From: Cyanobacteria bacterium FACHB-63
GTDB taxonomy: Bacteria > Cyanobacteriota > Cyanobacteriia > Leptolyngbyales > Leptolyngbyaceae
Direction of reading: 5' to 3'
DNA: 64,000 nucleotides
Assembly: GCA_014695255.1 (NCBI GenBank)
Contig: JACJNX010000060.1
Location: forward strand, 1-64,000
The position numbers and the translations under genes are program-made. The notes under the pieces were generated by a model. The model had not been told where the DNA came from, searched no databases, and worked only from the letters and a program-made list of their open reading frames with translations. The first letter of the stretch is position 1; each line of letters starts with the position of its first letter. This document shows, piece after piece, positions 15,745-60,173 of the stretch.

Positions 15745-16914
15745 ATGAAAGCTGTATGCTGGCATGGCGCGAATGATGTTCGCGTCGATAACGTTCCTGA
15801 TCCAACCATTCTGAATCCGAGAGATGCCATTCTCAAAGTAACAGCCACGACTATCTGCGGATCAGATCTGCACATTTATGATGGTTACATTCCCTCGATG
15901 CAGCCTGGTGACATCATCGGGCACGAATTCATGGGGGAGATTGTTGACATTGGGCGCGAAGTTAGAAAGCTAAAGAAGGGCGATCGCGTCGTCGTCTCTT
16001 CGATCATTGGTTGTGGTCAGTGTCACTTTTGCTCACACAAACAATGGTCACTCTGTGATAACTCAAACCCCGGTGGCGCCCTGCAAGAACCTATCTTCGG
16101 TTACAGCACCGCCGGAATTTTTGGATACTCACACCTATTTGGTGGATATGCTGGCGCACAAGCGGAATATGTTCGCATTCCATTCGCGGATCATGGTTGC
16201 GTTAAGATTCCCGATGGCATGACGGATGAGCAAGCATTACCGATTTCGGATGCTTTCCCGACTGGATATATGGGCGCAGATCTGTGTGATATCAAGCCCG
16301 GAGATGTCGTTGCAGTTTGGGGATGCGGTCCGGTTGGATTGTTTGCGATTAGAAGCGCGTATCTATTGGGTGCAGAGAAAGTGATTGGTATCGATCGCTT
16401 CCCCGAACGCCTAGCAATGGCAAAAGTCCAATGTGGTGCAGAAATCATTAACTACGAAGAAGTTGATGCAGGCGATGCACTGAAAGAAATGACAGGCGGA
16501 CGCGGACCCGATGCCTGTATCGATGCAGTTGGGCTAGAAGCGCACGGAACCGGATTGATGGGACTGTACGACGAAGTGAAACAGTCTGTTCGACTGGAAA
16601 CCGATCGACCTCATATTCTGCGTCAAATGATTGTTGCCTGTCGCAAAGGCGGCGTGATTTCGGTGATGGGTGTGTATGCCGGATTTATCGATAAGCTGCC
16701 GATGGGAGCTGCCTTTAACAAGGGTCTCACCTTCAAAATGGGACAAATGCACGGACAGCGCTATATGCCCAAGCTGATTGATCACGTCCTCAAGGGTGAC
16801 ATTGATCCAGCATTTGCTTTCTCCCATCATATGCCGCTCACTGACGCGAAGCAGGCTTATGAAATGTTCAAGCACAAGACCGATAAATGTATCAAAATTC
16901 TTCTGAGACCGTAA
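15745..16914 (+). CDS. Zinc-dependent alcohol dehydrogenase, copy 1
   Basis: A 389-residue medium-chain dehydrogenase of the glutathione-independent formaldehyde dehydrogenase-like branch. Catalytic zinc ligands are in ICGSDLHIYDG and GHEFMGEIV. The structural zinc site is CGQCHFCSHKQWSLC (Cys4). The NAD-binding motif is [15 protein letters not shown] and the insert [22 protein letters not shown] is typical of this branch. It is followed 2 bp later by a small exported protein and then by a close paralogue, forming an operon. The substrate is unknown; aldehyde detoxification is an inference. Confidence 0.93.
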   Translation: MKAVCWHGANDVRVDNVPDPTILNPRDAILKVTATTICGSDLHIYDGYIPSMQPGDIIGHEFMGEIVDIGREVRKLKKGDRVVVSSIIGCGQCHFCSHKQWSLCDNSNPGGALQEPIFGYSTAGIFGYSHLFGGYAGAQAEYVRIPFADHGCVKIPDGMTDEQALPISDAFPTGYMGADLCDIKPGDVVAVWGCGPVGLFAIRSAYLLGAEKVIGIDRFPERLAMAKVQCGAEIINYEEVDAGDALKEMTGGRGPDACIDAVGLEAHGTGLMGLYDEVKQSVRLETDRPHILRQMIVACRKGGVISVMGVYAGFIDKLPMGAAFNKGLTFKMGQMHGQRYMPKLIDHVLKGDIDPAFAFSHHMPLTDAKQAYEMFKHKTDKCIKILLRP

Positions 16915-16916
16915 TT

Positions 16917-17318
16917 ATGAACTATCTACGCAAGATTTTCTCCACTGTAATTCTAAGTGTCTTACTATCGCTGACACTGCTGAGTGTTCCGGCTCACGCT
17001 GCGATCGCACCTCAAGAAGCTCAAAACATCATGCGCGATGCCAATAGCCTTCAAGAAGCGGGTCAAAAGCTCCGAGAAGCAGATTCTTCTGAAAAGCTTC
17101 GCAACAATGAAGCGCTAAACACTGCAAAGGAAGTCCGTAAAGGTAGCCCCGCGATCGATGCGAAAGGCAACACTGATCCGGTTGGTGAAACCAAAGAAGG
17201 CTTAAAAGGCATCGTTGAGAACGTCAAGGACAAGCTGAACTTAGATGAGCCGCTTCCTCCTGCGACCAAAGAGTTTCTCCATGATCCTCAATCCAAAGTT
17301 CCTGAAGGGAGAAATTAA
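16917..17318 (+). CDS. Small exported protein between the two dehydrogenases
   Basis: A 133-residue protein with a signal peptide at about residues 1-28 ending AHA. The mature part is polar and helical (EAQNIMRDANSLQEAGQKLR, NVKDKLNLDEPLPPATKEFL). I chose ATG 16917 because it places the hydrophobic signal at the N-terminus; an in-frame upstream start would overlap the previous gene. It starts 2 bp after the first dehydrogenase stop, and its stop touches the second dehydrogenase start. I recognise no family. A periplasmic or lumenal role in the same stress response is inferred. Confidence 0.8.
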   Translation: MNYLRKIFSTVILSVLLSLTLLSVPAHAAIAPQEAQNIMRDANSLQEAGQKLREADSSEKLRNNEALNTAKEVRKGSPAIDAKGNTDPVGETKEGLKGIVENVKDKLNLDEPLPPATKEFLHDPQSKVPEGRN

Positions 17319-18488
17319 ATGAAAGCGTTGTGCTGGCATGGTGCGCTCGATGTTCGCGTGGACAATGTTCCTGATCCGAAGATTCTGAATCCACGGGATG
17401 CGATCGTCAAAATTACATCGACCGCGATCTGTGGCTCTGATCTCCATCTCTATGATGGTTTCATTCCCACCGTGCAATCCGGTGACATTCTCGGTCACGA
17501 ATTCATGGGCGAGATTGTTGAACTCGGACCTGCGGTAAAGAATCTGAAGATCGGCGATCGTGTGGTAGTTCCGTTTACGATCGCGTGTGGCAACTGCTAT
17601 TTCTGCCAAACAGATTTGTGGTCGCTTTGTGATAACTCAAATCCAAATGCTTGGATGATTGAGCCTTTGTATGGCACTTCTCCGGCTGGATTGTTTGGAT
17701 ATTCGCATTTCTTTGGTGGCTATGCAGGCGGACAAGCTGAATATGCGCGGGTTCCGTTTGCGGATACCGGATTGTTCAAGATTCCGCCGGAACTGACCGA
17801 TGAACAAGTGCTGTTCTTGACTGACATTTTCCCAACTGGGTACATGGCAGCAGAACATTGCGATATCAAACCGGGTCATGTCGTTGCGGTTTGGGGTTGT
17901 GGTCCTGTCGGTCAGTTTGCAATTAAGAGTGCTTTTCTCTTAGGTGCAGAGCGAGTGATCGCGATCGACCGAGTGCCCGAACGTTTGGAAATGGCGAAAA
18001 CTCAGTGCGGCGCGGAAGTGCTGAACTATGAGGAAGTCGATGTCGGGGATGCGCTGAAAGAAATGACAGGCGGACGTGGACCTGATTCGGTGATTGATGC
18101 CGTGGGCTTAGAGTCACATGGAACCAGCATCGATTACTGGGCGGATCGAGTCAAGCAAGCCGCTCGGCTGGAAACCGATCGACCGATCGCGCTGCGTCAA
18201 GCGCTAGTTGCTTGTAGCAAAGGTGGAACGGTTTCGATTCCGGGTGTGTATGGGGGTTTCCTCGATAAAATTCCGATGGGAGCCGCATTTAACAAAGGGC
18301 TGACGTTCAAAATGGGACAAACCCACGTGCATCGTTATCTCAAGCCTTTGATCGAACACATTCAGCGCGGTGACATTGATCCGTCTTTTGTGATCACACA
18401 CACGCTACCTCTGGATCAAGCTCCGCATGGTTATGAGATCTTCAAACAGAAGAAAGATAACTGTATCAAAGTGGTGCTGAAGCCTTAA
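17319..18488 (+). CDS. Zinc-dependent alcohol dehydrogenase, copy 2
   Basis: A 389-residue paralogue of the gene at 15745, of identical length and mostly identical by eye over the whole protein. It keeps [20 protein letters not shown], the Cys4 site [30 protein letters not shown] and the [22 protein letters not shown] block. Differences cluster around residues 110-125 and in the substrate half ([20 protein letters not shown]). It begins directly after the stop of the exported protein, with GGGAG upstream inside that gene. The tandem arrangement indicates local duplication followed by some divergence. Confidence 0.93.
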
Positions 18489-36779: not shown

Positions 36780-37481
36780 ATGAACCAGGAAGTGATTCAG
36801 GACTTTCTGAATGTACCAGGAATCACGGGAATCGCCTTACTCAGTAGACAGTCTGAGCCAGTTTTTTACAGCAGTCATCCTGAGAGTTTTCAGGAGCGAT
36901 TGAAATTCCTATCTGAAGGCATTCTACAAGTTGTCGAAACCATCCCAACTGAATATGAAGTTCTTGAGTTTCAGTGCGCTCAAACTCAAGTGGTGCTGTG
37001 CCGCCTGCTCCAAAACATGATTCTCCTGGCGCTCAAAGATCAGTCCTGCATCACCGAGCAGTTCACTCACGTCGTTGAAGCCTTGAGATCGCACATTGTC
37101 GTCGAGCCGATCGCTTCTGAATCCGTTGACTCACTCACTGATTCTTCCCGTCCAACCCGACAAGACCTGCTAGATGCCTTTAATCAATTGAATCAATTCA
37201 CCCGGCAATCTTTGGGTGTCGCTGTAATCGTGAACTATCTAAAGAAAACTTGTCCCATGCGCGACGGGTTCGAGCAATTTCAGGTAGAGAGATCGGGACA
37301 AATCCGCTTTGTTGGGGAATCCTCAACCTTAGAACAGGCGGTGAGCGCTCAAGAATACGACTGGTTTCGCGCTTGGGTGGCTCAGTTTATTCGTCGCTGC
37401 TCTCAAGCGGTGCGTAATTATGCTGTCCTTGTTGAGCAACACGCTCTCACCGATACCCAAAAAGCTCTTTTATTGCCCTAA
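36780..37481 (+). CDS. First protein of PSII-assembly-type operon, unknown function
   Basis: A 233-residue soluble protein. Residues 1-110 (GITGIALLSRQSEPVFYSS, EYEVLEFQCAQTQVVLCRLLQNMILLALKD) look like a roadblock/LC7-type alpha-beta domain. After a polar linker, residues 120-230 are helical (TRQDLLDAFNQLNQFTRQSLG, WVAQFIRRCSQAVRN). I recognise no characterised function. Only 19 bp separate it from the ferredoxin gene, and the spacer repeats ATTGCCCTAACC twice. A scaffolding or regulatory role in photosystem II biogenesis is inferred from its neighbours. Confidence 0.8.
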   Translation: MNQEVIQDFLNVPGITGIALLSRQSEPVFYSSHPESFQERLKFLSEGILQVVETIPTEYEVLEFQCAQTQVVLCRLLQNMILLALKDQSCITEQFTHVVEALRSHIVVEPIASESVDSLTDSSRPTRQDLLDAFNQLNQFTRQSLGVAVIVNYLKKTCPMRDGFEQFQVERSGQIRFVGESSTLEQAVSAQEYDWFRAWVAQFIRRCSQAVRNYAVLVEQHALTDTQKALLLP

Positions 37482-37500
37482 CCACTATTGCCCTAACCCT

Positions 37501-37986
37501 ATGGTGAAAACGGTACGCCTTGAACCGATCGCCCAAGACAGTGCGATCGAAACGATGGGGAATCTCCTCTCGGTTCTCCTTAACAAAGATTTAGACGTCT
37601 TAAAAGAATGTGGCGGGCGTGGAATGTGCGCGACTTGTCATATCTACGTCAAGGATGGAATGGCTTCTTTGACTCCAATTGATCGACGCGAGCAGCGCAC
37701 TTTAGAAGTGATCACCTCTTGTAAGTCGAATTCACGATTGGCGTGTCAAGCGAGAGTGATTGGGAGCGGAGTCGTAGTGGAGCTACCTCCAGGAATGTAT
37801 GTCAACTCCATCAAAGACATCGAAGCGCTAATTGGACGTAGAGCCGAACAGGATCTACTGCATCCTTTGACTGGGCAAGTTCTTGTGGAAGCAGGAAAAT
37901 TAATTACCCGATCAATGCTGAAAAAAATCGAAGATACAACCCCCTTCAATCCGTCAAATTATTTCTCGAATTCGTCTGGCGTTTAG
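37501..37986 (+). CDS. 2Fe-2S ferredoxin-like protein (Slr0148-like)
   Basis: A 161-residue protein with a 2Fe-2S ferredoxin fold at about residues 1-100. Cluster ligands are in CGGRGMCATC (C-x5-C-x2-C) with the fourth Cys in RLACQAR. About 55 extra residues follow (YVNSIKDIEALIGRRAEQDLLHPLTGQVLVEAGKLITRSM). The tail and the operon context resemble the ferredoxin-like proteins of the Synechocystis slr0144-slr0152 operon. ATG 37501 is chosen because it begins the ferredoxin strand and clears the previous gene. It presumably transfers electrons during photosystem II assembly or repair, as inference. Confidence 0.88.
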   Translation: MVKTVRLEPIAQDSAIETMGNLLSVLLNKDLDVLKECGGRGMCATCHIYVKDGMASLTPIDRREQRTLEVITSCKSNSRLACQARVIGSGVVVELPPGMYVNSIKDIEALIGRRAEQDLLHPLTGQVLVEAGKLITRSMLKKIEDTTPFNPSNYFSNSSGV

Positions 37987-38037
37987 ATTCACAAAGAAAC
38001 AGGGAACGCTTCAAACAACGCTAAATCGATAACGCCT

Positions 38038-38511
38038 ATGTTGAGTCAGATCCAGCGGTTAACGCAAGAAACCGAAGGACGCTACGCCACCGATGAGGAA
38101 CTCCGTTTTTTAATTGAGTATGCTCGATCGTATGAGCTGCGCGTCCAAACCTATCAGAAGCTACAAGCCTGCGAAGCGGTAATCATACAGCAGGTACAAG
38201 CGAAAATGAGAGCAATCGATCCGATGCTGTTTCGTCAGGGCAACGAGGATTTAACAAATAAATGGAAGCGCGATACAGTGCGAGTTCTGCGCTACTCTGC
38301 CGCTGCCATGCTGATTGACGATCCAGAGTCGATGCGGGAACGATTTCTCTTTTGGTTTCAGACGATGATGCGGGCGTTTAATGCTCAAAAAAGCTGTGGT
38401 GTCACTTACACAGTAATGCAGGAAGTGATTAAACAAGTTTTAACTGTCAATGAAGCAAATTTAATTTTACCGATTCTAGACGTGAATCGCCGAATGCTTG
38501 GAACAGCTTAG
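38038..38511 (+). CDS. Phycobilisome-fold protein lacking bilin Cys, copy 1
   Basis: A 157-residue all-helical protein of the phycobilisome/allophycocyanin fold: an N-terminal hairpin (YATDEELRFLIEYARSYELRVQTYQKL), then the globin-like core (NKWKRDTVRVLRYSAAAMLIDDPESMRERFLFWFQ). The chromophore-binding Cys of normal subunits (in CLRD-type motifs) is absent from WKRDTVRVLRYS, so covalent bilin attachment is not expected. It is third in the PSII-assembly-type operon and is paired with a V4R gene. It may be a structural or ligand-binding relative of phycobiliproteins. Confidence 0.85.
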   Translation: MLSQIQRLTQETEGRYATDEELRFLIEYARSYELRVQTYQKLQACEAVIIQQVQAKMRAIDPMLFRQGNEDLTNKWKRDTVRVLRYSAAAMLIDDPESMRERFLFWFQTMMRAFNAQKSCGVTYTVMQEVIKQVLTVNEANLILPILDVNRRMLGTA

Positions 38512-38676
38512 CAGTCGGATTTTTGCTTCGTTCTGGATGGGTAGATGCTGCTTGAATTCCCCGTGCGTCGAAGACTTAAAGCAAGAAAGTTTCAAAACTC
38601 CGAATCTGGGCACACTGAAACCCATCAGCGCATCTGTTATCGCTTCACTTATTGCCTTGACCCCCCTAGAAAACTT

Positions 38677-39357
38677 ATGCCCATTGCACTTTCTCATCAA
38701 ACCCCTGCAAAGCTCAAGAATCCGAAAAAACATAACCACTACGGATTCAAAGACTTTTATCAATTCAACTCGGATACGGGCACGATCGTTGATTGGAACA
38801 ACAGTCAGAACATTCTCACATCTGAAGATTTCATCATTGGTTTAGTTGAAGGACTCGAAGAAGAAGTGGGTGATGCTTCAGCGGCAACGATGTACACGAT
38901 CGGCTGTGAGTGGGGTCAAAAAGATGCGTTCTTTTTCGAGAAATGGTTTGAAAAAGAATACGATCGCCCGATGCGTCAAACCAATCTGATGTTCTTGCTC
39001 GAAACCTGGTGGTGGTCGCTTACTGCCCAGGGTTGGGGACGCTGGGAAGTGGATTTGGGCGATCGCAAACAAGGATTTATGTTCATCAATGTGTTTGACT
39101 CAGCTGTGGCGCGGACGCTGGGAGATGTGGGTAAACCAGTTTGCTTTTTATATGCTGGATTGTTTGCTGGCTTTTTTACGGAATTGGTGAAAAAACAGCT
39201 TAGCTGTATCGAAATTCAGTGCTATTCGATGGGCGAAACCTACTGTAAGTTTCTCCTCGGTGGACAAGAACGGATCGATGCAGCATCGTTTTGGCTGAAT
39301 GAAGGCGCGACTGCAAGAGACATCGAAAAACGGCTCAGAGCAGGAGAACTCCGATGA
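38677..39357 (+). CDS. V4R-domain protein, copy 1 (Slr0144/Slr0147-like)
   Basis: A 226-residue protein. The C-terminal half holds a V4R (4-vinyl reductase) domain with the conserved Cys and Gly run SCIEIQCYSMGETYCKFLLGG, preceded by a Trp-rich region (LLETWWWSLTAQGWGRWEV). V4R domains bind small hydrophobic ligands, and related proteins Slr0144/Slr0147 belong to the photosystem II assembly operon. ATG 38677 begins the conserved part; the longer open frame has no similarity. Its last codons overlap the next gene by 4 bp (ATGA), implying coupled translation. Confidence 0.87.
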   Translation: MPIALSHQTPAKLKNPKKHNHYGFKDFYQFNSDTGTIVDWNNSQNILTSEDFIIGLVEGLEEEVGDASAATMYTIGCEWGQKDAFFFEKWFEKEYDRPMRQTNLMFLLETWWWSLTAQGWGRWEVDLGDRKQGFMFINVFDSAVARTLGDVGKPVCFLYAGLFAGFFTELVKKQLSCIEIQCYSMGETYCKFLLGGQERIDAASFWLNEGATARDIEKRLRAGELR

Positions 39358-39668
39358 CTCTAATGCTGGAACAGAATGACCTCCAAGAAACTCAGAATTG
39401 GCTACATTCTTCGGTTCAAACGTTTTTCACAACCTGCAATTGGAACGATCAACTCATTGATCCAACTCCACAGATGGTTCAACAGTTAGAACAAGCAGCG
39501 GCGATCGGGCCATTGACAGAACTTTCATTCAACTTACCAGTCGGTCAATTTTTCGCCGCAATTCACTGGGAAGGAACCGCCGTTCGACTTCCCCTAGTTG
39601 ACTCTCTCGAACTTCTATCAGAACCGACAGATGACTTTACCTTGACTGATTTTTCTGATTTGTTTTGA
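39354..39668 (+). CDS. Small soluble protein of the PSII-assembly-type operon
   Basis: A 104-residue acidic protein (pattern LTELSFNLPVGQFFAAIHWEG, then DDFTLTDFSDLF). It shares a 4-bp overlap with the V4R gene before it and sits between the two phycobilisome-fold/V4R pairs. I recognise no domain. Its position suggests it corresponds to one of the small unknown members of the slr0144-slr0152 operon, but I cannot prove which. Confidence 0.75.
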   Translation: MTLMLEQNDLQETQNWLHSSVQTFFTTCNWNDQLIDPTPQMVQQLEQAAAIGPLTELSFNLPVGQFFAAIHWEGTAVRLPLVDSLELLSEPTDDFTLTDFSDLF

Positions 39669-39684
39669 TTTGACAGGAACGCTT

Positions 39685-40179
39685 ATGCAATCTCCCATCC
39701 ACGGAATTTTTGATGAAGCCGAACACCGCTACCTCAAACCCGAAGAACTTCAATTAATCGGGCACTATGTTGGCTCAATCACAGACCGCATCCATGCTTA
39801 TCGAGCCTTACGCGATCGAGAGCTTGACTTAGTTCAGCAAGCTGCCGATCAGCTCCAATTCGACCTGCCAGATGCAGAACTCGCCGTATTAGAGCGAGCA
39901 ATTAAAAACGGAATGCTGATCTTGCGTCATTGTGGAATGGCGATGCTGCTAAATGACCCGAACTTTGTGCAATCTCGGCTTCTAGATTGGCTCAAAGACT
40001 CGATCGAACTACATCAAGCGCAAGGTGCAGATGCCGCTTTCTTTGAATTGATGAAACAGCAACTGCGTCTGTCACTAACTCCACAACAGATGGCGCTTCT
40101 AGAACCGTTTCTCAATCAAGCTGAAGCGATCATGCCAGCACAACCCGAAGAAATGCTCACCGTCGCAGGGATTTTCTAA
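39685..40179 (+). CDS. Phycobilisome-fold protein lacking bilin Cys, copy 2
   Basis: A 164-residue relative of the protein at 38038, sharing the hairpin (YLKPEELQLIGHYVGSITDRIHAYRALRD) and core (AIKNGMLILRHCGMAMLLNDPNFVQSRLLDWL). The bilin-linking Cys position is again not Cys; a single Cys occurs later, in ILRHCGMAM. ATG 39685 has AGGAA about 8 bp upstream; a TTG 15 bp earlier is less likely. It is followed 2 bp later by the second V4R gene. Confidence 0.85.
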   Translation: MQSPIHGIFDEAEHRYLKPEELQLIGHYVGSITDRIHAYRALRDRELDLVQQAADQLQFDLPDAELAVLERAIKNGMLILRHCGMAMLLNDPNFVQSRLLDWLKDSIELHQAQGADAAFFELMKQQLRLSLTPQQMALLEPFLNQAEAIMPAQPEEMLTVAGIF

Positions 40180-40181
40180 TC

Positions 40182-40838
40182 ATGATTTCTGTTAGCGATT
40201 TATTGGTTCGCGATCGTCTGCCCGCGAACTACTACGCCAGCGATGTTTATGTGCGCGGCGATCTAGAAATGGGGCTGCTTGAAAGCCGGCGGGGCGATCG
40301 ATTGCTCTCGCTGCCTGAAACACTCATTCAGGGAGTTTACTCTGGACTGAACAAAGAAACAGGTCAAGCTTCGCGATTGGTTTTATTTAACTGCGGTCGC
40401 TGGTGGGGCAAAAACTTCTTTAATCGCTTCCGGGACGAAATGAGCGATTATTATGGGGTGCCGCTAGTTGACATGCCAATGGCAGACTTTTTGCAAGCTT
40501 TGAAGCAATGCTGGATTACTTACGGTTTAGGCAAACTGAGCTTGGATCAGACTTATCACGATCGCGGATTTCTGATTGTGGAGACAACGAATTCGCCGTT
40601 TGCGCGACTGGCAATTGATCCGGAGTTGCCATCTTGTCATCTAGAAGCAGGAATGTTTGCCGCAATCTTTAGTCAGCTTGCAGATCGAGAGTTACACTGT
40701 GTGCAAACGCGCTGTGAATCTTTGGGAGCCGCAAGTAATTTGTTTGTGGTTGGGCTGCAAAAGCGACTAGAGCAGGCTGAGAGCTTGGTGGAAAAACAAC
40801 TTGACCACGAATCAATTCTGCCTCGTTTATTGGTCTAG
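40182..40838 (+). CDS. V4R-domain protein, copy 2
   Basis: A 218-residue paralogue of the V4R protein at 38677. It keeps LETSL-type helices, GRWWGKNFFNRF, the ligand-binding C-terminal half (HLEAGMFAAIFSQLADRELHCVQTRCESLGA) and two of the three clustered Cys residues; the third is Asn here. It begins 2 bp after the phycobilisome-fold gene and ends 18 bp before the kinase gene. The ligand could be a pigment or pigment precursor, by analogy with the family. Confidence 0.85.
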   Translation: MISVSDLLVRDRLPANYYASDVYVRGDLEMGLLESRRGDRLLSLPETLIQGVYSGLNKETGQASRLVLFNCGRWWGKNFFNRFRDEMSDYYGVPLVDMPMADFLQALKQCWITYGLGKLSLDQTYHDRGFLIVETTNSPFARLAIDPELPSCHLEAGMFAAIFSQLADRELHCVQTRCESLGAASNLFVVGLQKRLEQAESLVEKQLDHESILPRLLV

Positions 40839-40856
40839 CATGGAATCGATTGAGAG

Positions 40857-42659
40857 GTGTCTACGCTATCAAGCGCTAAGTTCAAGCAATTCAAGTATCG
40901 GCTTCTAGGATTGGTGGGTCGAGGGCAGTTTGGGCGGGTCTACTGTGCGCTGCATCGCCAGACGGGTGAGTTCGTTGCACTTAAAGCACTGGATCGAACC
41001 CTTTCGACTCATCAGTTTTTGCGAGAACTACGATTTCTCGTGGCGTTAGAGCATCCCAATATTGTCACTTGTCGAGCGATCGAGCATCTGCACGGAAAGC
41101 GGTATCTCGTTCTCGACTATTGCGAAGGCGGAACGCTGCGCCAATTCATGGAAAATCATCAGCAGTTGCATCCGGCGCTCAGTGTGCAATTAGTTTGCGA
41201 TGTGCTGACGGGATTAGAATACGCCCATGATCGGGGTGTGATTCACTGTGACATCAAGCCGGAGAACATTTTGCTGGGCTTAAGTCCAGAGGGATGGACA
41301 GCGCGGATCTCTGATTTTGGCATTTCGCGGCTCAGTCAAGAAGTTACGCCGTCTCCCTCAAATTTAACTGGGTCGCCTGCATACATGGCTCCAGAGCGGT
41401 TTTATGGACAATATTCGTATTCGACCGATTTGTATGCGGTTGGGATTTTGTTGTTTGAGCTATTAACGGGGTATCGCCCGTTTTCGGGTCTGCACACAGA
41501 AATCATAGCGGCGCATCTCAATCAACCTGTGCGGATTCCAGCGCATATTCCAACACCGCTGCAAACTGTAATTTCTACAGCGCTTGAGAAGTTAAAGGCG
41601 CGAAGATATCAGTCTGCGGCTCAAATGCGGACTGCGCTTCAGTCTGCGGGTGCACAGACATTTCAAATAGATGCTCAAACTCTAACGACTCCGATCGTTC
41701 CGTTATTCTATCTGCCTGAGATTCTGCGGAACGAACGGTTATCCACTCAAGCTGAGCAGATTGGAATCGTAGAGACGGCTACCCTTCCCCAGTACGATCG
41801 CTATGTTCGTCAATCCGCCTTAATTTTTCTCAGTCATACCAAAACGCTGCAAACTCGCTCGTATCCGATGGGATTCCTCGATCGTCGAAGTGGAAAAGCT
41901 TTACCCATTGCTACCCTTGCAGAGCCGATTCGGGAATTGATTGTGCGATCGCAAGGCTGTTTTGCGGTGACAGAGCGCTCCGTTTATCAACTTTCTGAGC
42001 AAGCGCCGCAATTGTTAACTCGACTGCATCAACCATCGCGAATTGCGATCGAGCCACAGGGACGCTGGATGGTGATTGCAACGCTGGGAAACCAGGAGAG
42101 CGCAAAGCTTTTAAGCTTTTGGACGCTGCCGCAGCCGAAATTAATTCAGCGTCCGACTATTTGTGAGGCAAGTTTGGGAGGCGTGATTGCATTAGTTGCG
42201 GTGACTTCTCGTTATGCGGTGCTAATTTCGCAGGCTGAACGATCGACTCGATTGAATGGATACAACCGCCGAGGACAAGCATTGGGCAGACTGAATCTGC
42301 CTGTGCAACTGAAACAAGTTTTTCCATCTCCTCGCCCTTATTGCCTTGCTGCAACCGAAGTTGGACATGAACGATCGCTGCTGTTCATACATCTCAAACC
42401 GTATCGATTAATTCGGATCGCGATCGCAATTCGTCCTCAATTTGTTGCGGCTTTTCCTTGGGGAGTAGTTGTTTGCGACGAAGAGCAACTGATAGCGATA
42501 GATTACAACGGGCAGCAAATTGGACAGTCAGAAATTCCGCCAGGCGTTTGCGCGATCGCGGCGCATGGAGAAACGGGACTCGCGATCGCAACGTGGCATC
42601 AAGCAGAAAGCACACTTTACACCTTGAATCTTGAGACGATGCGCTCCGCAAGCTTGTAA
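40857..42659 (+). CDS. spkG: Serine/threonine protein kinase, SpkG-like, with beta-rich C-terminus
   Basis: A 600-residue kinase. The eukaryotic-type kinase domain occupies residues 10-275: GRGQFGRVY (glycine loop), VALKAL (Lys), VIHCDIKPENILL (catalytic Asp, with HCD in place of HRD), SDFGIS (metal Asp) and SPAYMAPERF. Residues 300-600 repeat short strands such as GRWMVIATLGN and YNRRGQALGRLNLP, suggesting a beta-propeller sensing or binding domain. GTG is the start. Last in the operon, it matches the place of SpkG (slr0152) in the Synechocystis PSII-assembly operon. Confidence 0.88.
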   Translation: MSTLSSAKFKQFKYRLLGLVGRGQFGRVYCALHRQTGEFVALKALDRTLSTHQFLRELRFLVALEHPNIVTCRAIEHLHGKRYLVLDYCEGGTLRQFMENHQQLHPALSVQLVCDVLTGLEYAHDRGVIHCDIKPENILLGLSPEGWTARISDFGISRLSQEVTPSPSNLTGSPAYMAPERFYGQYSYSTDLYAVGILLFELLTGYRPFSGLHTEIIAAHLNQPVRIPAHIPTPLQTVISTALEKLKARRYQSAAQMRTALQSAGAQTFQIDAQTLTTPIVPLFYLPEILRNERLSTQAEQIGIVETATLPQYDRYVRQSALIFLSHTKTLQTRSYPMGFLDRRSGKALPIATLAEPIRELIVRSQGCFAVTERSVYQLSEQAPQLLTRLHQPSRIAIEPQGRWMVIATLGNQESAKLLSFWTLPQPKLIQRPTICEASLGGVIALVAVTSRYAVLISQAERSTRLNGYNRRGQALGRLNLPVQLKQVFPSPRPYCLAATEVGHERSLLFIHLKPYRLIRIAIAIRPQFVAAFPWGVVVCDEEQLIAIDYNGQQIGQSEIPPGVCAIAAHGETGLAIATWHQAESTLYTLNLETMRSASL

Positions 42660-58674: not shown

Positions 58675-59466
58675 TCAAAGCAGGCTCGATTGAGCAACGA
58701 TCGCTTTAATCAATCCATCCAAAGTGAATTCTTCCGCCTCGATTTCTACTCGTCCGAGTAGAGCGCGACAGGTTTTTGAAGTTTGAGGACCGATCGACGC
58801 AAACTTGACAGTTTTGAGCGTCTCAACCCAGTGATCCCCGATCGTTTGCTGCAGCAGTTCGCAGAAATGCTTCACCGTTTTGGAACTAGCGAACGTGACC
58901 AAGTTGGCTGCTTGATCTTGAATCACAGCGATTGATTTGGCATCGGGAATTCTTGGGCAAGTCGATTGATAAGCAGCAACTTCAGTAATGATCGCACCAC
59001 GATCGCTAAAGGCTCTTACCAGCACATCACGCCCGCCGGTTTCGACTCTGGGAAAGAGAATTTTTTTCCCATCGATCGACTCTGGAAAGTTCACGACCAT
59101 TGCATCCGCGATATACTCAGGCGGAATAAAATCGGGCTGCAATCCGCGCTGTCTAAGGCGTTGTGCCGTTTTCTCTCCCACAACCGCAATCTTAATCGCT
59201 GCTAGACCGCGCAAATCTTTTAGCTGAGACGCTAACCGCTCGAAGAAGTAATCTACGGCATTGGTAGAAGTCAAAATCAGCCAATCAAACTCACTCAGGC
59301 TTGCGATCGCGTGATCTAACTGATCCCAACTCGACGGCGGCACAATCTCGATCGTCGGCATCTCGATCACCTTTGCACCATAATTTTGCAGCGAGTACGA
59401 AAACTGACTCGACTGCCCCGCTGCACGAGTGACGATAATGGTCTTTCCAAATAAAGGCAAATTCAT
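58675..59466 (-). CDS. hemD: Uroporphyrinogen-III synthase
   Basis: A 263-residue enzyme that cyclises hydroxymethylbilane to uroporphyrinogen III in tetrapyrrole synthesis. Typical blocks are IIVTRAAGQSSQFSYSLQNYG, WLILTSTNAVDYFFERL, KIAVVGEKTAQRLRQRG, LFPRVETGGRDVL, VTFASSKTVKHFCEL and ASIGPQTSKTCRA. Its first codons overlap the end of cobA by 4 bp, so the two should be translationally coupled. The product feeds haem, chlorophyll and bilins. Confidence 0.94.
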   Translation of the reverse strand: MNLPLFGKTIIVTRAAGQSSQFSYSLQNYGAKVIEMPTIEIVPPSSWDQLDHAIASLSEFDWLILTSTNAVDYFFERLASQLKDLRGLAAIKIAVVGEKTAQRLRQRGLQPDFIPPEYIADAMVVNFPESIDGKKILFPRVETGGRDVLVRAFSDRGAIITEVAAYQSTCPRIPDAKSIAVIQDQAANLVTFASSKTVKHFCELLQQTIGDHWVETLKTVKFASIGPQTSKTCRALLGRVEIEAEEFTLDGLIKAIVAQSSLL

Positions 59467-60173
59467 AAGAACGATCGTAGCCTAACAACTTCCCCAATCA
59501 CAATCACACAAGGCGACAACCGTTGCGGATTGACCTCTGCTAGAATCTCCGAGAGTGTACTGCTCCAGATTTCCTGCTGTGGATGACCCGCCCAGCGAAT
59601 AATCGCGATCGGGGTCTGTTCTGATTTTCCCTGATGGCGTAGCTGTTCGACAATCAGAGGCAGATGTTTTCCTCCCATCAGAATCACAAGTGTATCGAGT
59701 TGGGCGAGATTCTGCCAGTTGAGCCGCTCTGGTTCGTGGGCGGTGATCACCGTAAATCCGCGGCTGAGGACGGGATCGGTGAGCGGAATGTTGGCAAACA
59801 AGGGAGCCGCTAATGCTGAAGAAATTCCCGGAACGACTTCGTAAGCGCAATTTGCAGATTTGAGTGCCTGAATTTCTGAGGTCGTTCGCCCGAAAATGAA
59901 CGGATCACCGCTTTTGAGTCGGACGACTTGCTTACCTTGCTGACATTGTTCAACGAGGAGACGATCGATCTCTTCTTGTTTCATGCTCGGTTGTCCGCCC
60001 CGTTTGCCCACATTGAGCTTGAGACAAGCTTCTGGAGCAAGTTCTAGAAATTGCGAATCGATTAGCGCATCGTAAACGAGGACTTCTGCTTGAGTAAGCA
60101 ATTGATAGGCTCGCATGGTTAAATTGCCGATGTCACCGGGACCTGATCCGACGAGGAAAACTTTACCTGACAT
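59463..60173 (-). CDS. cobA: Uroporphyrinogen-III C-methyltransferase
   Basis: A 236-residue SAM-dependent enzyme making precorrin-2 from uroporphyrinogen III, the branch to sirohaem and cobalamin. Signatures are VFLVGSGPGDIGNLTMRA, VYDALIDSQFL, VGKRGGQPSMKQEEI, VVRLKSGDPFIFGRTTSEI, VVPGISSALAAPLFANIPLT and TLVILMGGKHLP. It lacks the CysG dehydrogenase/ferrochelatase part. Being upstream of and overlapping hemD places the branch enzyme with the enzyme making its substrate. Confidence 0.95.
   Translation of the reverse strand: MSGKVFLVGSGPGDIGNLTMRAYQLLTQAEVLVYDALIDSQFLELAPEACLKLNVGKRGGQPSMKQEEIDRLLVEQCQQGKQVVRLKSGDPFIFGRTTSEIQALKSANCAYEVVPGISSALAAPLFANIPLTDPVLSRGFTVITAHEPERLNWQNLAQLDTLVILMGGKHLPLIVEQLRHQGKSEQTPIAIIRWAGHPQQEIWSSTLSEILAEVNPQRLSPCVIVIGEVVRLRSFL

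Follow-up and report, generated by a model that had tools for sequence, protein, structure and literature searches.

An eight-gene cyanobacterial operon with two unequal pairs of globin and V4R paralogues, a variant of the V4R/bilin-globin cluster

The window analysed here is a stretch of 64,000 nucleotides from Cyanobacteria bacterium FACHB-63 (contig JACJNX010000060.1, positions 1 to 64,000), in which positions 36780–42659 of the + strand hold eight genes, all on the same strand. The locus is a local variant arrangement of the known cyanobacterial V4R/bilin-globin (BBAG) cluster and contains the slr0144–slr0149 core and the SpkG-type kinase of the Synechocystis pap operon. New are the characterisation of two components, a protein with repeated motifs (S104) and an undescribed roadblock-type partner, and a corrected reading of the paralogues: what looks like a module present in two copies is in fact two unequal pairs of ancient paralogues. 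With moderate confidence, we take the operon to encode one asymmetric complex for redox or tetrapyrrole handling together with its kinase, rather than two parallel complexes.

Gene content and linkage

The eight products gave Pfam matches to Fer2 (1.5e-7), the Phycobilisome fold (9e-20 and 5.6e-10), V4R (7.8e-22 and 3.8e-13) and Ser/Thr kinase (3.3e-50), in the order Fer2, Phycobilisome, V4R, Phycobilisome, V4R, protein kinase; the 233-amino-acid product at the head of the operon and the 104-amino-acid product S104 matched no Pfam family above the cut-off. The globins are called PBS1 and PBS2 and the V4R proteins V4R-A and V4R-B, each in gene order. With starts taken at 37501 (ferredoxin), 38677 (V4R-A) and 39685 (PBS2), which agree with the lengths of homologues, the gene number, order and spacings of an original prediction made from the sequence (19, 51, 165, −4, 16, 2 and 18 bp) are exact. 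The identical eight-gene order was found again at loci L033, L034, L040, L066, L184 and L193, so the arrangement is not due to chance. The two V4R genes are the only ones in this genome; phycobilisome-fold matches occur elsewhere in it, beyond PBS1 and PBS2. Promoter and terminator scans gave signals no higher than in shuffled sequence.

Gene orders were collected from 56 loci of a 291-genome phylum sample and from 80 named loci, and linkage was counted in 119 non-redundant clusters. The stable neighbours are V4R-A followed by S104 (104 clusters), S104 followed by PBS2 (104) and PBS2 followed by V4R-B (105), and the four genes make up an unbroken core in about 104 of the 119. Of the 92 clusters with PBS1, 78 have it beside the ferredoxin; in 8 of the 119 it is found no more than 400 bp ahead of V4R-A. 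Many genomes have separate loci in which the gene for the first protein (U, after its conserved C-terminal domain UCT) is joined to the ferredoxin gene, with or without PBS1. These counts and separate loci define two heritable blocks, [U]-ferredoxin-PBS1 and V4R-A-S104-PBS2-V4R-B(-kinase), which are joined in the window. The original prediction saw a two-gene globin and V4R module repeated on both sides of a small protein and proposed a gene-order comparison across cyanobacteria; that comparison goes against it. The adjacency is real in this lineage, but PBS1 is inherited with the ferredoxin and V4R-A with S104, PBS2 and V4R-B, and duplication of a globin and V4R pair as a heritable unit is rejected on the linkage. 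Operon adjacency by itself would have pointed to the wrong duplication story.

In the trees, the two V4R proteins fall into distinct clades, each with a member from a relative outside the class, albeit on long branches. PBS1 and PBS2 also form separate clades (support 100/99 and 99/95). Within the window, the two globins are 25% identical and the two V4R proteins 27%. Joining the outgroup globin of L048, which has a long branch, to PBS2 was not rejected (approximately unbiased test, AU p 0.43), which leaves room for globin and V4R duplications that happened together or apart. The ferredoxin also precedes V4R-A in the outgroup loci L048, L049 and L050, which makes the direction of change uncertain; the idea that the ferredoxin-PBS1 block moved upstream in this lineage was dropped, and no direction of movement is claimed.

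Cofactor sites

Neither pair is uniform in its cofactor sites. V4R-A keeps a C-E-C-C pattern in all 52 sequences, while V4R-B has it in none of 49, with no sequence keeping both the Glu and the last Cys and CQCN being typical. The four V4R-A columns align with those of PoxR and MopR, and in DmpR zinc is held by Cys151, Glu172, Cys177 and Cys185 (PMC7264223). Judged by these residues, V4R-A retains a DmpR/PoxR-type zinc signature and would bind zinc. The DmpR, PoxR and MopR sensor domains share the V4R fold, but the window proteins are stand-alone, without ATPase or DNA-binding domains, and the one with the signature is paired with a degenerate partner. Against the curated NCBIfam model for BchJ 4-vinyl reductase, V4R-A scored 20.9 bits (cut-off 74.3), which places it outside that family.

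At the bilin-cysteine column, the 35 PBS1 sequences have Cys (23), Trp (11) or Phe (1), with at least three Cys/Trp changes on the tree; the window has Trp. In PBS2, the CxRD bilin attachment motif is found in 0 of 43 sequences and a bare Cys at the bilin column in four. The window globins read WKRD (PBS1) and AIKN (PBS2) at this site, which weakens the pigment sensing that had been proposed for the operon. Within one genus (L039, L052, L083 and L085), species differ in the PBS1 residue, some having Cys and others Trp, a mixture that suggests bilin attachment was lost or gained more than once.

The asymmetry of both the V4R and the globin pair does not fit two equal complexes. In Synechocystis, a pulldown with tagged Slr0149 recovered Slr0144–0149 together, and the proteins are described as thylakoid-located (PMC9880817). 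Neither result supports the two parallel complexes of the original prediction.

The S104 and roadblock-UCT proteins

Members of the S104 family carry VxxFFxxxNW one to four times, and most also have LxDFSDLF at the C-terminus. The first motif occurs 105 times in the family against a shuffle mean of 0.74; as the alignment used for the count is also the source of the pattern, the excess shows repetition, not discovery. When the DNA form of the motif was searched for in the genomes of 30 relatives, the matches were S104 genes or chance frames only. The family occurs only with V4R: its profile matched 46 of 49 V4R-positive genomes of the class and 0 of 237 V4R-negative genomes, and in 79 clusters the S104 start lies 4 bp inside V4R-A. 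The predicted model is of low confidence (predicted local distance difference test, pLDDT, 65.6), with short helices only, located on the motifs, and a PDB sequence search with the profile gave nothing credible. In the open literature slr0145, the gene of this type, is almost never mentioned. S104 is probably a scaffold or tether.

The AlphaFold model of the 233-residue protein has a pLDDT of 84.7, with about 95 in the C-terminal part. Its best Foldseek matches are roadblock proteins (E 2.8e-5), and residues 1–112 superpose on roadblock and Rag/Mgl folds with VIA Z values of 9.4–11.8. In this model, residues 1–112 have the alpha-beta-beta-alpha-beta-beta-beta-alpha order of the roadblock/LC7 fold, although no Pfam roadblock match was obtained. 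A weak GNAT match (0.0058, below the cut-off) was dropped after the fold search. The predicted fold is shared with MglB, Ragulator and the Asgard roadblocks, from which the window protein differs by its lack of a Pfam sequence match, its fusion to an unnamed C-terminal domain and the absence of a GTPase from the operon. V4R and roadblock folds occur together in a TRAPP-like setting in Asgard archaea (PMC10933270); apart from the shared folds, the tests made gave no support to a TRAPP-like reading of the operon.

The UCT domain has no Pfam match, and a PDB sequence search with its profile gave nothing credible. In relatives it is fused to a roadblock domain, pentapeptide repeats or a receiver-like domain. 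It is present in 48 of 50 V4R-positive and 0 of 8 V4R-negative relatives (Fisher 2.3e-8, without correction for relatedness); the phylum sample has it in 37 of 49 V4R-positive genomes of the class, with one marginal partial match among 237 V4R-negative genomes. The co-occurrence persists where the two genes lie far apart or on different contigs, and in G300 both are present in a broken state. The gene, often unlinked, is present in the genus Synechocystis, and none of the papers found connects it with the operon.

Ferredoxin and kinase

All four cluster cysteines of the ferredoxin (C37, C43, C46 and C82), conserved in 44 sequences, are kept in the window. The kinase has HCD instead of HRD in its catalytic loop, as do 60 of 68 cluster kinases, and shares this loop with the kinases of the genus Synechocystis; placed at the end of the operon, it is of the SpkG type. 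In Synechocystis, phosphorylation of Fd5, the product of slr0148 (PMC4284462), is abolished without SpkG (PMC11863333). Of the redox- and pigment-sensing checkpoint suggested earlier, the kinase–ferredoxin link thus has a Synechocystis counterpart, while the pigment part is the one weakened by the globin sites.

Relation to known clusters

The genes of Synechocystis salina (L154) run V4R-A, S104, PBS2, V4R-B, ferredoxin, PBS1, plant-type ferredoxin, TPR protein, kinase, which matches the window genes to slr0144, 0145, 0146, 0147, 0148, 0149 and 0152, with 0150 and 0151 left out. The match to the slr0144–slr0152 operon, earlier regarded as established, is therefore one of kinship and is incomplete. 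V4R-A, an S104-like protein, PBS2, V4R-B, a Fed5-type ferredoxin, PBS1 and an SpkG-type kinase are common to both, but in the window the slr0150 and slr0151 genes are missing, ferredoxin and PBS1 lie upstream of V4R-A and the roadblock-UCT gene heads the operon. In G014, whose genus code is that of Synechocystis salina, the gene for the UCT protein stands apart from the cluster and encodes pentapeptide repeats in place of the roadblock. The slr0150 plant-type ferredoxin is absent from 36780–42659 (the rest of the genome was not searched for it). Also absent from this interval is slr0151, for which the genome gives no full-length match, only TPR-repeat matches, the best (4.2e-9) covering residues 170–247 of 308 and being generic.

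The BBAG cluster is described as deriving from clusters of heterotrophic bacteria that hold a bilin reductase (PMC10151467, Rockwell et al. 2023); the same core has also been described as a conserved fed4/fed5 cluster (PMC4284462), and the V4R duplication has already been published (PMC13326532). The window shares with the BBAG cluster the Fe-S protein, V4R clades A and B, phycobiliprotein-like globins and the absence of a bilin reductase. The window globins are related to the light-harvesting phycobiliproteins but have neither the bilin cysteine nor a place in the phycobiliprotein clade. CxRD is present in some BBAG members only (PMC10151467) and is thus not strictly defining, so its absence from both window globins is a difference within the group; S104, the UCT protein and the kinase lie outside the core of Rockwell et al. 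2023 (PMC10151467). A second cluster type is found at L049, L050, L075 and L076, where the UCT protein has a receiver-like N-terminus, S104 was not detected and a single globin, grouping nearer PBS1, lies between the V4R genes.

Photosystem II (PSII) reaction-centre genes are present in the window genome and likewise in the V4R-negative relatives G179, G321, G002 and G036. None were detected in G010 (assembly 91% complete), a genome with V4R-A, V4R-B, the ferredoxin, globins, a heme oxygenase, kinases close by and an S104-like protein that carries FF...W motifs. The locus L048:4601-8288, from a relative in which PSII genes were not detected, runs ferredoxin, V4R-A, S104-like, globin, V4R-B, heme oxygenase; kinases and a ParA/MinD-like ATPase are encoded in the neighbourhood. 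Slr0151 is the best-supported PSII factor of the Synechocystis operon (PMC4853703; PMC9145668). Given these distributions and the lack of a full-length Slr0151, a link to PSII assembly is plausible through kinship to the pap operon but would be borrowed from Synechocystis, mainly from slr0151.

Interpretation

The preferred reading combines the gene content, paralogy, linkage, residue patterns, predicted roadblock fold and co-occurrence observed here with the co-purification, kinase–ferredoxin link and photosystem phenotype of Synechocystis, applied by analogy. V4R-A and V4R-B would most likely pair as a heterodimer, with the putative zinc site, beside a hydrophobic pocket for a presumed ligand, retained by V4R-A alone. 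Since neither PBS1 nor PBS2 can attach a bilin via the usual cysteine, these bilin-globin relatives may serve mainly as helical partners. S104 would be a flexible tether, its VxxFFxxxNW helices and C-terminal DFSDLF binding the subunits together. The Fed5-type ferredoxin would bring redox input to the complex and is probably phosphorylated by the kinase; the roadblock protein may be a docking subunit. The complex would act at the thylakoid, in photosystem assembly or repair or in tetrapyrrole handling in its service.

Several points weigh against this reading. Zinc binding by V4R-A is deduced from residues, and any binding of the roadblock protein to the other subunits is conjectural. The co-occurrence counts for S104 and UCT are uncorrected for shared ancestry. 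Loss of Fed5 in Synechocystis left growth healthy in one study (PMC4284462), and in another the knockout failed to segregate (PMC8887894). Finally, the pulldown evidence is from Synechocystis, where the PBS1 sequences of the genus retain the bilin cysteine.

A device in which the complex takes a linear tetrapyrrole or chlorophyll precursor and the ferredoxin gives electrons would suit the ancestry in pre-PcyA clusters with bilin-binding globins (PMC10151467), the heme oxygenase adjoining the cluster in L048 and the Cys kept by many PBS1 relatives; it is made rather doubtful by the Trp of the window PBS1, the missing CxRD in PBS2, the lack of a heme oxygenase or bilin reductase in the operon and the low BchJ score. 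Less likely again is a dedicated set of PSII assembly factors, as in the pap operon literature. For loss of Slr0144–Slr0152, slower growth and reduced PSII activity are on record (PMC9145668), and the operon is induced when lumenal PSII proteins are lost (PMC4853703), but Slr0151 is missing here, and PSII and V4R genes part company in both directions among the relatives. Two parallel complexes, each a globin scaffold with a V4R sensor derived from duplication of a two-gene unit, would account for the adjacency and paralogy of both pairs and are compatible with the unsettled duplication ages, but are very improbable given the linkage counts, the unequal cofactor sites, the single set recovered by pulldown (PMC9880817) and the L048 order, in which no globin immediately precedes V4R-A.

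Extending the single-complex reading, we tentatively suggest that the cluster may have been a pre-photosynthetic signalling scaffold, with a zinc-V4R/pseudo-V4R heterodimer, a globin/pseudo-globin pair and a phosphorylatable ferredoxin on the repeated-motif tether S104, plus an exchangeable sensor subunit (roadblock, pentapeptide or receiver N-terminus on one conserved docking domain), which cyanobacteria later attached to thylakoid photosystem maintenance. The role of V4R in PSII assembly was still declared open in 2026 (PMC13326532), and the locus offers concrete handles on it: a V4R with an intact metal site next to one without, a repeat protein open to motif mutation and an often unlinked UCT partner gene.

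Features of the locus and of the window

Table 1. Genes and motifs of the operon, in window coordinates.
Feature	Position	Strand	Basis
233-aa protein: predicted roadblock/LC7-type fold (residues 1–112) and conserved C-terminal domain UCT (about 128–233)	36780..37481	+	AlphaFold, Foldseek, family alignments
Adrenodoxin/ISC-type [2Fe-2S] ferredoxin, Fed5 (Slr0148) orthologue	37501..37986	+	PF00111, fdx_isc model
PBS1: phycobilisome-fold globin (cyanobacterial BBAG, Slr0149 type), Trp for bilin cysteine (WKRD)	38038..38511	+	PF00502, clade 100/99, motif
V4R-A (Slr0144 type), intact C156-E179-C182-C190 zinc-type signature	38677..39357	+	PF02830, tree, PoxR/MopR alignment
S104 (Slr0145 type): motif protein, probably disordered; 4-bp overlap with V4R-A	39354..39668	+	alignment, low-confidence model
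S104 motif copy 1, VQTFFTTCNW (residues 21–30)	39414..39443	+	family motif count
S104 motif copy 2, VGQFFAAIHW (residues 63–72)	39540..39569	+	family motif count
S104 C-terminal motif, FTLTDFSDLF	39636..39665	+	family alignment, motif count
PBS2: phycobilisome-fold globin (Slr0146 type), without CxRD	39685..40179	+	PF00502, clade 99/95, motif
V4R-B (Slr0147 type), degenerate metal site CQCN	40182..40838	+	PF02830, clade-B residue pattern
SpkG-type Ser/Thr kinase, HCD catalytic loop (non-RD)	40857..42659	+	PF00069

A short tandem repeat, TATTGCCCTAACCC (2.2 copies, 37471–37502), lies exactly on the junction of the roadblock and ferredoxin genes. Elsewhere in the window, a tetrapyrrole pair, the genes for uroporphyrinogen-III synthase and uroporphyrin-III C-methyltransferase, is arranged head to tail at 58678–60173. 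At 15745–18485, two paralogous genes for zinc-type alcohol/formaldehyde dehydrogenase-like proteins (389 residues each) flank a gene for a 143-residue protein with a signal-peptide-like stretch (16887–17315); this dehydrogenase pair around a small gene is a real local duplication.

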